A stretch of 39,330 nt of DNA from Actinomycetes bacterium (GTDB lineage: Bacteria; Actinomycetota; Actinomycetes; Actinomycetales; Microbacteriaceae): assembly GCA_021779075.1 (NCBI GenBank), contig JAJYBG010000004.1, forward strand, positions 1 to 39,330. The letters run 5' to 3'. The stretch's first letter is position 1. Every line of letters begins with the position of its first letter. This document shows positions 14,369 to 25,002 of this stretch, piece after piece. The notes under the pieces are model-generated. The model did not search any database. It had not been told where the DNA came from and was given only the letters and a program-made list of their open reading frames with translations. A program made the position numbers and the translations under genes.

Positions 14369-14545
14369 CTACTTGTGTGTCGTGTCGTGGCTCGCGGCGT
14401 GGTGGATCTTGTCCGCCGCCGTCTTCAGCGCGTTCTCCACCGCGTCGGTGGCCTCGTTGACCTTGCCCTCGACGGCGTCCACGACGTTGTCGGTGACCTT
14501 CTTGGCGCCTTCAGCACCTTTTTTGATGCTCTCTCCAGCGGTCAT
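14369..14545 (-). CDS. Small Ala/Lys-rich CsbD-like or stress-associated protein
   Basis: ATG at 14545; MTAGESIKKGAEGAKKVTDNVVDAVEGKVNEATDAVENALKTAADKIHHAASHDTTHK. Confidence 0.6.
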   Translation of the reverse strand: MTAGESIKKGAEGAKKVTDNVVDAVEGKVNEATDAVENALKTAADKIHHAASHDTTHK

Positions 14546-14891: not shown

Positions 14892-16880
14892 CTAGATCAC
14901 GACGAAGCTCGCGCTCACTCCCGGCGTGAGCGGGGACGAGGTCGCCCTCAGGGTGTAGATTCCGGCCCGATCGATGCTGCACCCCGAGAAGGCGGCGACG
15001 CCCGACACCGCCGCCTTCGGGTTGCTCATGCAGTTGAGGGTCGCCCCAGCGGGATTCGTGATCGCCAGAGTGACCGATGCGGTGCTGGTCGTGGTGTTCC
15101 CGAACGCGTCGAGCACGGCGACGACCGGCTGGGTCGCGAAGGTGATCGACCTGACCGAGTTCGAGGGCGATGAAGTGAAGCTCAGCCGGGTCGCGGGGCC
15201 GGCGCTGATGGTGAAGCTGGCGCTCGTCGCCGAACTCAGGCCGAAGGCCGTCGCGGTCAACGTGTAGGTCCCCGCCTTCCCGATAGCGCACCCGCTGAAG
15301 GTCGCGGTGCCGTTCACTGCCGCCTTCGGGTTCGCGGCGCAACTCAGCGTCGCCCCGGCCGGGGTGGTGATCGACAGGGTGATCGAGGTCGTGCCTGAGG
15401 TCGTGTTGCCGCTCGCATCCTGAATGGCGACGGTCGGCTGGATGTCGAACGCGGCGCCGCTGAGCGCCGACGAAGGCGAGGTGGTGAAGGCCAGCTTGCG
15501 CGGGGTCGTGAAGATGAAGAACGTGGAGCTGACCCCGCTCTGCAGGCTCGCCGAGCTGGCGGTGAGCACGTAGCTTCCGGCCTGATTGATCCGGCAGCCA
15601 TCGAAGGCAGCGACTCCCGCGACAGCGTTCTTGGGGTTGCTCGTGCAGACGAGCTTCCCCTTGGCGATGGTCAAGGCGACCGGAGCGGTGCTGCTCGTGA
15701 CCGTGTTGCCGCCGGCATCCTGCACGGCGACCACCGGCTGGGTGGTGAAGGCCACGTTGCGGGCCGCGTTGCTGGGACTCGTCGTGAAGACCAGCTTGCT
15801 CGCCGCGCCAACGGAGACGACGACGGTGCCGCTGATGGCCGAGGACAAACCCGGCGAGGTTGCCGTCAGGGTGTAGGTGCCGGCCTTGTCGATCGTGCAA
15901 CCCGAGAACCCGCCGGTTCCGGAGGCAGCGGCGACCGGGTTGGCACTGCAGCTGAGGGTGGCGCCCGCAGGGGTGCTGATGGACAGCGTCACCGGAGCGG
16001 TGCTGATGGTCGAGGAACCGCTCGAGGTCTGGATCGCGACCACCGGCTGGATGCCGAAGGCGATGCCGCCCGTCGAGTTGGACGGATTGGTCGTGAAGGC
16101 GAGTTTGGCCGGACTCAGCGCCGTGGAGGCGACCCAGTTGTTCGCTGCATTCGTCGTGCTCCCGGTGAACGCCGCGCTCGCGGCCGGGACGATCGGGGCG
16201 ATGGCGACCATTGCGGCGCAGAGAAAGAGAAACATCACCGACAGGGCGCTCTCCGGGCCGATGCGTCCGGCCAAAGTGCGGATGCCAGGGTACGGCGGCC
16301 GAGAGTGCCCGGATCGACGGTCGCCTCGTCCTCGGGTCTCGCCCCGCGACGCGAGGAACTCGATGACCAGCGCGAGCAGCGTCACCGCGATCCATGCGGC
16401 GAAGGGGACGAGAAGGCCGTGCTGCAGCCAGTAGGCCGGAAGGCCGATCCACGGAATCAGCAGGCAGCTCACCGCGATGATGTCGGCTCGGGCCAGCGGC
16501 GCGCTGTCGACGTCCCGGTTGGCGTCGCCCGCGGTGATCAGGCTGCCGTCAGGATTGATTCCGACGATGCGATGCAGCCGGATGCCCGGCTCCGCCGAGC
16601 CTGCGGGAGCCCGGAAGGTCACCACCCGACCGAGCGGAGTCGGCGCGTCCGCCGACAAAGGCTGGGAGAGCACGACGTCGCCGATGGCGATGTGCGGCAT
16701 CATCGAGCCGCTCTGCACGACCGTTCCCGTGAGGCCGAAGGCCATCGGGAGTGTGGCGCAGGCGGCAAGCGCGACGAGGAAGACCAGGTAGCCGCGCGCG
16801 AGAACGCGCACGACCAAGAGCCCCCAGTCCACGACGACTGCGCGACGCGTCTGAGGCTCCTGGGCCGGCTCCCCTGTCAT
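14892..16880 (-). CDS. SipW/S26B-type signal peptidase I fused to an internal SipW-type signal segment and four Ig-like repeats
   Basis: VVQSGSMMPHIAIGDVVLSQP (catalytic Ser) and IRLHRIVGINPDGSLITAGDAN (His in place of the usual Lys); second hydrophobic segment ending AASAAFTGSTTNAANNW; then four ~100-aa repeats. Confidence 0.82.
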   Translation of the reverse strand: MTGEPAQEPQTRRAVVVDWGLLVVRVLARGYLVFLVALAACATLPMAFGLTGTVVQSGSMMPHIAIGDVVLSQPLSADAPTPLGRVVTFRAPAGSAEPGIRLHRIVGINPDGSLITAGDANRDVDSAPLARADIIAVSCLLIPWIGLPAYWLQHGLLVPFAAWIAVTLLALVIEFLASRGETRGRGDRRSGHSRPPYPGIRTLAGRIGPESALSVMFLFLCAAMVAIAPIVPAASAAFTGSTTNAANNWVASTALSPAKLAFTTNPSNSTGGIAFGIQPVVAIQTSSGSSTISTAPVTLSISTPAGATLSCSANPVAAASGTGGFSGCTIDKAGTYTLTATSPGLSSAISGTVVVSVGAASKLVFTTSPSNAARNVAFTTQPVVAVQDAGGNTVTSSTAPVALTIAKGKLVCTSNPKNAVAGVAAFDGCRINQAGSYVLTASSASLQSGVSSTFFIFTTPRKLAFTTSPSSALSGAAFDIQPTVAIQDASGNTTSGTTSITLSITTPAGATLSCAANPKAAVNGTATFSGCAIGKAGTYTLTATAFGLSSATSASFTISAGPATRLSFTSSPSNSVRSITFATQPVVAVLDAFGNTTTSTASVTLAITNPAGATLNCMSNPKAAVSGVAAFSGCSIDRAGIYTLRATSSPLTPGVSASFVVI
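14895..16113 (-). repeat. Four tandem ~100-aa (~300-bp) Ig-like repeats coding within the signal peptidase fusion
   Basis: Each starts KLxFTTxPSN/S, contains xQPVVAxQDAxGNT, and has two conserved Cys (LxC ... FxGC). Starts: AKLAFTTNPSNS, SKLVFTTSPSNA, RKLAFTTSPSSA, TRLSFTSSPSNS. Confidence 0.88.
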
Positions 16881-16981
16881 CGAGCTGCACCCTCACGCCG
16901 CCACGACCGCTACGGGGTGGACTGCAACTCCCAAACGACATCGGCACTTGCCGACTTCCCCTGAAGGGCGTCGATCTGGGC

Positions 16982-17515
16982 CTAGGTCAGAGCGGTGACG
17001 TCGAAGGTCCAGGTCGCCTTGTAGGTCTTGGTCTCGCGCGGGGTTCCCGCGGTAGCCCAGGGCAGAACGCCGGTCGTGTAGTTGTTGGTGCTCGCGCCGA
17101 GCGCGGCGAGCGACGTCGCCGGGAGGGTGCTGGACGGCGCGAATCCGGTGCAATCCGAGAAGCTGCCCCCGGCTCCGATCTGGATCGACATCGTGATGTT
17201 GTTCTCGAGGCCCTGGGCTCCCACGGTGTCGATGTACATCCGCACCTCGCCGGGAACGGTCGAATCGGAGGTGACGACCAGGCACTTCGAGCCGGTCTGC
17301 CCTGGAGTGACTCCCGTCACGCGGAAGGCCGCAGCACCGAGGTCGTCATCGGAGAGGAGCACCGAGCCGGTCTCCCAGTTGTTGCCGGTGTTTCGGGTGG
17401 TCGCCGTGAAGGCGGCGCTGGAGCCTTGCCAGACGAGCAGCCCGGCAACCAGGATCGCGGTCGGACCGACGAGCAGCGTGGCGAGCCGACGAGTACGAGC
17501 TACGGACTTGTTCAT
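16982..17515 (-). CDS. SipW-dependent-type (TasA/CalY-like) secreted protein
   Basis: MNKSVARTRRLATLLVGPTAILVAGLLVWQGSSAAFTATTRNTGNNWETGSVLLSDDD: twin-Arg-like basic start, hydrophobic core and SAAFTATTxNxGNNW cleavage context; upstream of and co-directional with the signal peptidase fusion. Confidence 0.82.
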   Translation of the reverse strand: MNKSVARTRRLATLLVGPTAILVAGLLVWQGSSAAFTATTRNTGNNWETGSVLLSDDDLGAAAFRVTGVTPGQTGSKCLVVTSDSTVPGEVRMYIDTVGAQGLENNITMSIQIGAGGSFSDCTGFAPSSTLPATSLAALGASTNNYTTGVLPWATAGTPRETKTYKATWTFDVTALT

Positions 17516-23291: not shown

Positions 23292-24214
23292 GCCCCGACC
23301 CGCAGCCGCGCGCCGAGCAGGGCGACCAGCCGCGTGTCTCCACGGGCCGTCACCTGCTCAAGGCGATAGCGGGGTTCGAGGAGGTGTCCCCGCAGGTGGG
23401 GATGCTCGACGAACAGGCCCTCAGCGCCCTCGAGCGACGGGACCCGGATGCTGCGCTGACCCTGCTCGCGGAGATGAGCGGCGCCACTGACGAGCGGCTG
23501 CGACGCCTGGCGCGGGCGCTGTCGGGCCGGGTCATGGTCCGCGCGGCGTCGCCGCGCGGCGCACCACGGCCCGGCGCAGGGCGCATCCGGTCGCGGCGCT
23601 GGGAGCCGGGCGTGGACGTGGACGTGGATGCGAGCCTGGACGAGCTCATGGTCTCGAACCTCGCCGGGCGGGCCGCTGACCCGGCCGGGCTGCGCGGACC
23701 CGGCTGGGTCCGGTCCGCGACCGCGATCAGTAGCGTGCTGGACCGGTCCGGATCGATGGGCGGCGCAAGGCTGGCCACGGCGGCGGTGGCCGCGGCGGCG
23801 GTGGCGCTGCGAGACATCGAGGACTACAGCGTCATCGCCTTCGGCTCGGCCGTGCGCGTCGTCAAGGCGCAGCGCCAGCCGCGCTCCGTGGAGAGCGTCG
23901 TGGGCGACCTGCTGAGCCTGCGCGGCCACGGCCGCACCGATCTGGCCGCCGCGCTGCGAGCCGCCGCGCGCGAACTGTCGGACTCGGCCGCATCACGGCG
24001 GATCGTTCTGCTGCTCTCGGACGGGCGCGCCACCACCGGGGACGACCCGCTTCCGGCAGCGCGCGCACTGGACGAGCTGCTGGTGCTGGCGCCGGTCGGG
24101 CCGGACGAGTCCGGTGCGCAGGCGCGCGCACTGGCGCGGGCGGTCGGCGGTCGGGTGGCGGAGGTGACCGGACCGAGCGCTGTCCCTGCCGCGATCGCCG
24201 CCCTCTGGCCGTGA
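23171..24214 (+). CDS. VWA-domain protein partner of MoxR (start uncertain; overlaps the MoxR 3' end)
   Basis: MIDAS-type DRSGSMGG, DYSVIAFGSAV, GRTDLAAALRAA, RRIVLLLSDGRATTGDDP. Confidence 0.8.
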   Translation: MASRLRPGRRAAAGSGRGGGTGKSARGDRPRPTGAPRNELSPDPQPRAEQGDQPRVSTGRHLLKAIAGFEEVSPQVGMLDEQALSALERRDPDAALTLLAEMSGATDERLRRLARALSGRVMVRAASPRGAPRPGAGRIRSRRWEPGVDVDVDASLDELMVSNLAGRAADPAGLRGPGWVRSATAISSVLDRSGSMGGARLATAAVAAAAVALRDIEDYSVIAFGSAVRVVKAQRQPRSVESVVGDLLSLRGHGRTDLAAALRAAARELSDSAASRRIVLLLSDGRATTGDDPLPAARALDELLVLAPVGPDESGAQARALARAVGGRVAEVTGPSAVPAAIAALWP

Positions 24215-24264
24215 CGTCAGCGCGTGAGGCGTCGAGCCGGCCCGACCCGTCCTGCGGTGGCGAT

Positions 24265-24640
24265 GCCGCGGGCTCGGAAAGCGATCGGGCCGCCCGCGGC
24301 CGGCCCTTCGCGGCCGATAGCCGCAGGCAGTGAAACACACTCTCCGCCGCAGCAAGCGTGCGGCAGATGGCCCAGACCCCGAAACGCACCCATCTGATCG
24401 ATGAAGCGGACCATCTCGTCGCGGGGCGGTCGAGCTCCGCGGCGAAAACGCCGACGCCGCCCGCAGTATCTCGTTCGCCCGCTTGAGCTCCGCGTTCTCC
24501 TGCTTCAACCGCTTCACCTCAGCATGCTCGATCGAGGTCACTCCCGGCCGCTCGCCCGCGTCGACCTCGAAGCGGCGCCGCCACTTCTGTCGACGGCGCT
24601 CGAAAACTGGAAACCACCGGTGAAGGGCCCCGCGGAGAGC
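24265..24640 (-). pseudogene. IS3-family transposase remnant (orfA end plus orfB start, frameshifted)
   Basis: WRRRFEVDAGERPGVTSIEHAEVKRLKQENAELKRANEILRAASAF, then in other frames MVRFIDQ and RFGVWAICRTLAAAE; no single intact frame. Confidence 0.75.
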
Positions 24641-24645
24641 CGCTG

Positions 24646-25002
24646 TCACGCCCCGATCTTGTGCTCCGCGAGGAGCAGCTGCACGGCCTCGCGGACGAGT
24701 TCGCTCTGCTTCTTGCCCGTCTGTTCCTCGAGCTGCTTGAATGCGGCGAAGTCGGCCTCAGCCAGCCGCCCCCGCACGGTGGGAGAGGCTCCCTTGGGGT
24801 GCTCGCCGAGTCGTGTACGCCCGGCACGCCGCAGCACGGCGTCCAGCGCCGCCTCGCTGCCGTACTCGCGCAACATGAGTGCGCGGCCGCGCCCGGCCGC
24901 TTCGGCGCCGGTTGCGATGTCCGTCACCTTCGGCATCGGGGTCGAGGGGTCGGTCAGCCACGCGGCCAGCGCGTCGTAGTCGGTGTCCTTGGGGTCAGCC
25001 AT
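24646..25002 (-). CDS. Ribbon-helix-helix-type antitoxin-like protein
   Basis: ATG at 25002; C-terminus SPTVRGRLAEADFAAFKQLEEQTGKKQSELVREAVQLLLAEHK is RHH-like; 8-bp overlap with the upstream small ORF. Confidence 0.6.
   Translation of the reverse strand: MADPKDTDYDALAAWLTDPSTPMPKVTDIATGAEAAGRGRALMLREYGSEAALDAVLRRAGRTRLGEHPKGASPTVRGRLAEADFAAFKQLEEQTGKKQSELVREAVQLLLAEHKIGA

Follow-up and report, generated by a model that had tools for sequence, protein, structure and literature searches.

A candidate TasA-type surface-fibre cassette of actinomycetes in which a SipW-type signal peptidase is fused to a putative substrate of its own with an exchangeable domain

Among the systems encoded by tapA-sipW-tasA of Bacillus subtilis and related genes, TasA polymerises via its N-terminal strand, and the N-terminus of TapA resembles that of TasA (PMC9674648). 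Residues 28–38 of TasA constitute the donor strand, with contacts made by F29, I32, and F39 (PMC9674648). TapA has an Ig fold, donates its N-terminus to TasA, and is co-expressed with SipW, the stop codon of tapA overlapping the start of sipW (PMC10151520). TasA has Phe at P2′ and Trp at P2, is cut by SipW, and is refractory to or poorly cut by LepB (PMC10269814). In Bacillus cereus, sipW-tasA, calY, and capP encode SipW together with a pair of camelysins and, in place of TapA, an accessory factor for assembly (PMC13082335). The literature also cites assembly by donor strands and archaeal pili that resemble TasA (PMC9674648). In Streptococcus pyogenes, the S26 homologue SipA (4n31) is dedicated to pilus polymerisation. 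The pilus assembled there is of a different type.

The window analysed here, a complete contig of 39,330 bases from a MAG of 1.78 Mb (197 contigs, 89% complete), carries two neighbouring genes on the minus strand. Gene B (16982..17515) encodes a TasA/camelysin-like SipW-type substrate, and gene A (14892..16880) encodes a 662-residue polypeptide in which a signal peptidase, a SipW-type signal, and an Ig-repeat passenger are fused. Like tapA-sipW-tasA of B. subtilis, the pair would comprise a SipW-type peptidase, a TasA-like subunit, and a third SipW-processed protein with a donor-strand-like N-terminus and an Ig fold. Unlike in B. subtilis, a single polypeptide combines the peptidase and the third protein, the subunit is encoded by the first gene, and the domain of the third protein is exchangeable. 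B. cereus has no such fusion, its CapP being encoded by a separate gene, and S. pyogenes SipA, although likewise an S26 homologue with a dedicated role, has no fused passenger. The subunits of archaeal bundling pili (7ueg) and CanA filaments showed low-ranked structural similarity, and to our knowledge no fused peptidase is known in these systems. The parts of the cassette are of known kinds, and what is new is the fusion with a swappable cargo and a donor-strand motif; in the open-licence literature, we did not find any account of an S26B peptidase that is joined to its own SipW-type cargo. Elsewhere in the window, a small charged ORF (14373–14545, minus strand), CsbD-like by eye, lies between gene A and a pyruvate-kinase-like gene, and a fragment at 23993–24649 (minus strand) resembles, by eye, the start of an IS3-type transposase. 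A scan for promoters and terminators found nothing.

The N-terminal part of gene A consists of a first transmembrane segment (TM1; about residues 20–50; 16731..16823), identified by hydropathy and an AlphaFold2 helix at residues 13–47, an S26B catalytic domain (residues 51–153; 16422..16730), and a second segment (TM2; residues 155–180; 16341..16418; helix 157–180). In the catalytic domain, Ser59 is contained in QSGSMMPHIAIGD and His103 in LHRIVG, and these two residues, the G-D-A-N motif (residues 118–121), and Asp125 were all invariant in alignments of 18–29 relatives. The His103-Arg104 pair was also invariant, the catalytic Ser thus occurring with His where bacterial LepB has Lys. Gene A matched TIGR02228 (E 3.3e-11) and the SipW model NF046067 (E 2.1e-7) with 43.3 and 30.7 bits, below the respective cut-offs of 51.85 and 190, which are equivalog cut-offs set for a narrower group than S26B as a whole; several fused relatives exceeded the cut-off of TIGR02228. 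The S26 domain was modelled confidently by AlphaFold2 (pLDDT about 86–96), and its best PDB matches in Foldseek were the catalytic subunit of the human signal peptidase complex (7p2q and 7p2p; E 5e-4), with LepB-type enzymes ranking below. The invariant catalytic residues and the fold of the model support the assignment of gene A to the S26B (ER/SipW-type) signal peptidases, with putative cleavage activity, as an earlier note made from the letters of this DNA had proposed. No second close relative of this peptidase was found in the genome, the sole further match being weak (E 0.018).

Downstream of TM2, gene A continues with an Arg-rich linker (residues 181–208; 16257..16340), a third hydrophobic segment (TM3; 16173..16256; helix 209–227), a post-cleavage donor-strand-like segment, AFTGSTTNAANNWVASTA (16119..16172), and four Ig-like repeats (15804..16112, 15504..15803, 15195..15503, and 14895..15194, respectively). 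The net charge of the 20 residues preceding TM3 averaged +4.8 and was at least +1 in 29 of 33 fused proteins, in line with a predicted topology in which the linker is cytoplasmic and TM3 leads the passenger outside. The number of repeats given in the earlier note was borne out by repeat comparison, with lengths of 103, 100, 103, and 100 residues and pairwise identities of 47–64%; the third repeat also gave a weak Invasin_D3 match over residues 467–560. This tail was beta-rich but poorly modelled by AlphaFold2, with pLDDT mostly below 60.

Gene B begins with a signal peptide (residues 1–34; 17414..17515), with cleavage predicted between A34 and A35-F36, followed by the mature N-terminus (17354..17413), predicted to be a donor strand from conservation and the model of the gene-B relative at locus L036. 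Camelysin family PF12389 matched 18 of 48 gene-B relatives at E <= 0.1 (best 7.4e-5), the single relative that was scored against the gathering cut-off falling below it (16.1 vs 22.5 bits), and the Pfam scan gave no PF12389 match in the gene B of the window itself. The TasA model NF046066 matched one relative (E 0.0046). When a close relative was modelled (pLDDT 84), ranks 1–3 among 350,542 PDB chains in Foldseek were occupied by TasA (5of1/5of2) with a probability of 0.99–1.00, an E value of about 1e-3, and a moderate TM score of 0.40–0.46, and the archaeal bundling pilus 7ueg was at rank 27. The gene-B profile searched against PDB sequences returned a chance match only and no TasA, so that the link came by fold. 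The relationship to TasA, which the earlier note had put forward as TasA/CalY-like, is therefore supported but not strong, the similarity in sequence being weak and that in fold moderate. In the model from L036, residues 2–15 had pLDDT below 50, yet F2, W13, and G16 were among the most conserved positions, as would be expected for a strand that needs a partner.

Both genes read exactly as previously quoted, except that the frame of gene B is cut by an in-frame TAG at codon 178 (16982–16984, minus strand), leaving 177 residues to the first stop, which had gone unremarked. A further 23 codons match relatives, the homologous frame running on to 16913, and the gene-B match spans 16919–17413 with one TAG inside. 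The codons past the TAG read AQIDALQGKSASADVVWELQSTP, and their counterpart in L035 reads SQIDALQGKSVSDDVVWELQSN; the part lost contains the conserved last strand with the invariant W163. Possible origins of the TAG are a recent nonsense mutation, variation between strains, and an error in the assembly. If it is real, the fibre subunit would be damaged here and the fused enzyme intact, and with gene B truncated the cassette may be broken in this genome.

The residues around the predicted cleavage sites of the two genes are closely similar, AASAAFTGSTTNAANNW of gene A (containing F238) and SSAAFTATTRNTGNNW of gene B (containing F36) each following a hydrophobic segment. In gene A, cleavage is predicted after A236 at the end of TM3 (A-S-A followed by A-F). 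The P1 residue at the end of TM3 was Ala in 78 of 81 distinct fused sequences, and an aromatic residue stood directly past the site in all but three of the fused proteins scanned, the latter count not being independent because the internal sites were picked by the aromatic residue. Nine loci were missed by this filter, of which six carry G/V/E-P-F/W and three, from Microbacterium, have no aromatic residue. In the fused proteins of L146, L147, and L150 (Microbacterium), Leu replaces the aromatic residue of the motif, possibly reflecting a change of specificity.

The similarity extends over about 17 residues of the tail past the site of gene A, which match the N-terminus of gene B in the pattern AF[ST]xxTxNPTSx[WFL]xAGxV. 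The mature N-terminus of gene B follows F-S-A-T-T-V-N-P-T-S-N-W-T-A-G-[TS]-V, and in the tails of gene A the residues seen most often are F-S-A-T-T-[AS]-N-P-T-S-S-[LFW]-A-A-[AG]-T. In 83 distinct pairs, the mean BLOSUM62 score between the post-cleavage segment of gene A and that of its own gene B was 17.2, compared with −1.3 when the residues of gene A were shuffled. An HMM built from gene-B N-termini only, searched against 7,958 six-frame ORFs from the fetched loci, recovered gene-B proteins, the internal sites of the fused peptidases, a small number of further SipW-type substrates, and almost nothing else at E <= 0.1. The reading of the internal hydrophobic segment as a SipW-type signal, given in the earlier note, is supported. 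The resemblance between the post-cleavage segments of genes A and B is far above chance. Segments of gene A scored higher with gene B of their own locus than with those of other loci (17.2 vs 14.2), a difference confounded by shared phylogeny, which accounts for part of it, and it was not taken to prove coevolution.

Related peptidases were present in 105 of 245 genomes of Microbacteriaceae. In 40 regions examined, they comprised enzymes of roughly 210–310 residues with two TM segments and fused forms with a third TM segment and a tail of roughly 110–430 residues. When a single genome was scanned for each species, 78 loci were obtained in named organisms, all 77 readable ones being fused (Frigoribacterium, Curtobacterium, Frondihabitans, Schumannella, Microbacterium, Arthrobacter, Pseudarthrobacter, Microlunatus, and an Intrasporangiaceae MAG); the search behind this list used a less diverse query (A2), which skews it to LamG and short-tail types. 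In a class-wide sample, additional families also had gene B together with fused enzymes. Altogether, about 100 loci from Microbacteriaceae, Micrococcaceae, Propionibacteriaceae, and other actinomycetes showed the fusion architecture. Gene B, of about 200 residues, was located directly upstream of fused gene A in the same orientation in 100 of 101 loci and carried a SipW-type signal in 100 of 101, these loci including some fetched twice and representing 88 distinct gene-B sequences. Across 240 genomes of the family, gene-B matches were found in 27, and 26 of these also had fused gene A, the exception being a weak partial match. In L048 (G080), a second SipW-type substrate lies directly downstream of the fused gene, giving the order B-A-B′.

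The tails attached to the enzymes were of several types, namely Ig repeats (the window and L035), ice-binding-like domains (PF11999; 1.2e-26 and 3.7e-35), LamG domains (PF13385; 7e-24 and 1.4e-20), and a short domain of about 115 residues, which gave no Pfam match in those scanned. Within the genus of the window, three genomes with the fusion had three different tails, which were Ig repeats in G000, an ice-binding-like PF11999 domain in G001, and a LamG-like domain in G003, the last assigned by eye from its resemblance to the LamG group. The enzyme and the motif are constant, and the passenger is exchanged. The short tails occur in L040, L042, L043, L047, L049, L052, L064, and others, and possibly represent a new small beta domain. 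The LamG tails also gave a weak match to the fimbrial protein TafC, which was set aside because it lay mainly over the LamG part and no paper on a bacterial TafC was found. Unfused enzymes also occur. At L223 (G409:C193), a SipW with two TM segments is accompanied by three gene-B-like genes, and a separate gene on the opposite strand encodes a 416-residue passenger, which starts with VRWPRLLIAGSAVLALGSLTAPGTGAAFSAVAANGTNSFSAAASFGTC and thus has the passenger signal and the motif at its true N-terminus. Enzymes in L220 and L227 are unfused as well. These unfused forms argue that export and cleavage are inherent to the passenger.

By analogy with tapA-sipW-tasA of B. subtilis, we moderately favour the reading that genes A and B form a two-gene cassette for a TasA-type surface fibre, in which gene A carries its own SipW substrate as a starter, cap, or tip with an exchangeable domain. 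The product of gene B would be the fibre subunit. Gene A would be inserted with TM1 running from inside to outside, the catalytic domain outside, TM2 returning, the Arg-rich loop in the cytoplasm, and TM3 running out again to place the passenger outside. Its S26B active site would cut gene B between A34 and A35-F36 and its own TM3 between A236 and A237-F238, acting in cis or on an adjacent copy. Once freed, the passenger N-terminus, AFTGSTTNAANNW..., would insert into a gene-B subunit as a donor strand, and gene-B subunits would polymerise through their own like N-termini, AFTATTRNTGNNW..., with the outcome of one passenger at one end of each fibre. Cleavage, strand donation, fibre formation, and the position of the passenger at the fibre end are all modelled on the B. 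subtilis system. The TapA family was not among the Pfam and NCBIfam matches of the fused proteins, and the passenger would accordingly be said to work like TapA rather than to be TapA.

The fusion itself could in principle be an assembly or annotation artefact that merges two genes, and the window is indeed a MAG contig; the earlier note had named absence of the fusion from close relatives as a sign of this. The fusion is present in relatives, and its recurrence across several families, in genomes that are closed or nearly so, refutes this explanation, to which we give practically no weight. The passenger might instead stay attached, TM3 serving as an uncleaved anchor and the extracellular tail keeping or docking subunits of gene B at the membrane during processing, as a platform and not a released tip. 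The three helices of the model fit such an arrangement, and a tethered starter would site fibre growth at the enzyme. We consider it unlikely, because the small P1 residue (mostly Ala) and the aromatic residue past the site are kept while TM3 varies, the first residues past the site (about 17) copy the predicted mature N-terminus of gene B, and the unfused relative has its passenger as a separate exported protein.

It is equally improbable, in our estimation, that the passenger is a conventional secreted adhesin or lectin, with fusion only ensuring its processing and the shared segment acting as an extended recognition sequence of the peptidase that donates no strand. The passenger domains are diverse and include known stand-alone binding modules (PF11999 and PF13385), and the shared segment is common to all S26B substrates here, both of which this explanation would accommodate. 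Against it, the match reaches G-x-[VL], some 15 residues beyond the site and in the region of the TasA donor strand and the next segment, and is in our judgement longer than the contacts expected between a signal peptidase and its substrate. The near-perfect coupling with gene B also argues against it. 

The coupling with gene B and the shared donor-strand-like motif strengthen the idea of the earlier note that the two genes may build a two-component surface fibre. The note did not include that the Ig repeats are one of several tails, that the cassette is widespread, and that gene B of the window is cut by an in-frame stop.

Returning to the fibre cassette as the preferred reading, we suggest, more tentatively, that these proteins are a widespread class of actinobacterial self-processing signal peptidase polyproteins. 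Each enzyme would cut off its own C-terminal passenger, which would start or cap a TasA-type fibre and be swapped between strains to alter what the tip binds, such as ice, glycans, or other surfaces. Fibres of the TasA donor-strand type have been described in Bacillus and archaea, and the cassette points to a broad branch in actinobacteria (Curtobacterium, Frigoribacterium, Arthrobacter, Microbacterium, and others) in which the processing enzyme is physically joined to the probable starter or tip protein. If this is true, the fusion would offer one route to one starter per peptidase, cis cleavage by a signal peptidase would become directly testable, and the exchangeable passengers would provide modular display at the fibre tip. 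The arrangement may also bear on the cause of the overlap between the tapA and sipW reading frames in B. subtilis.
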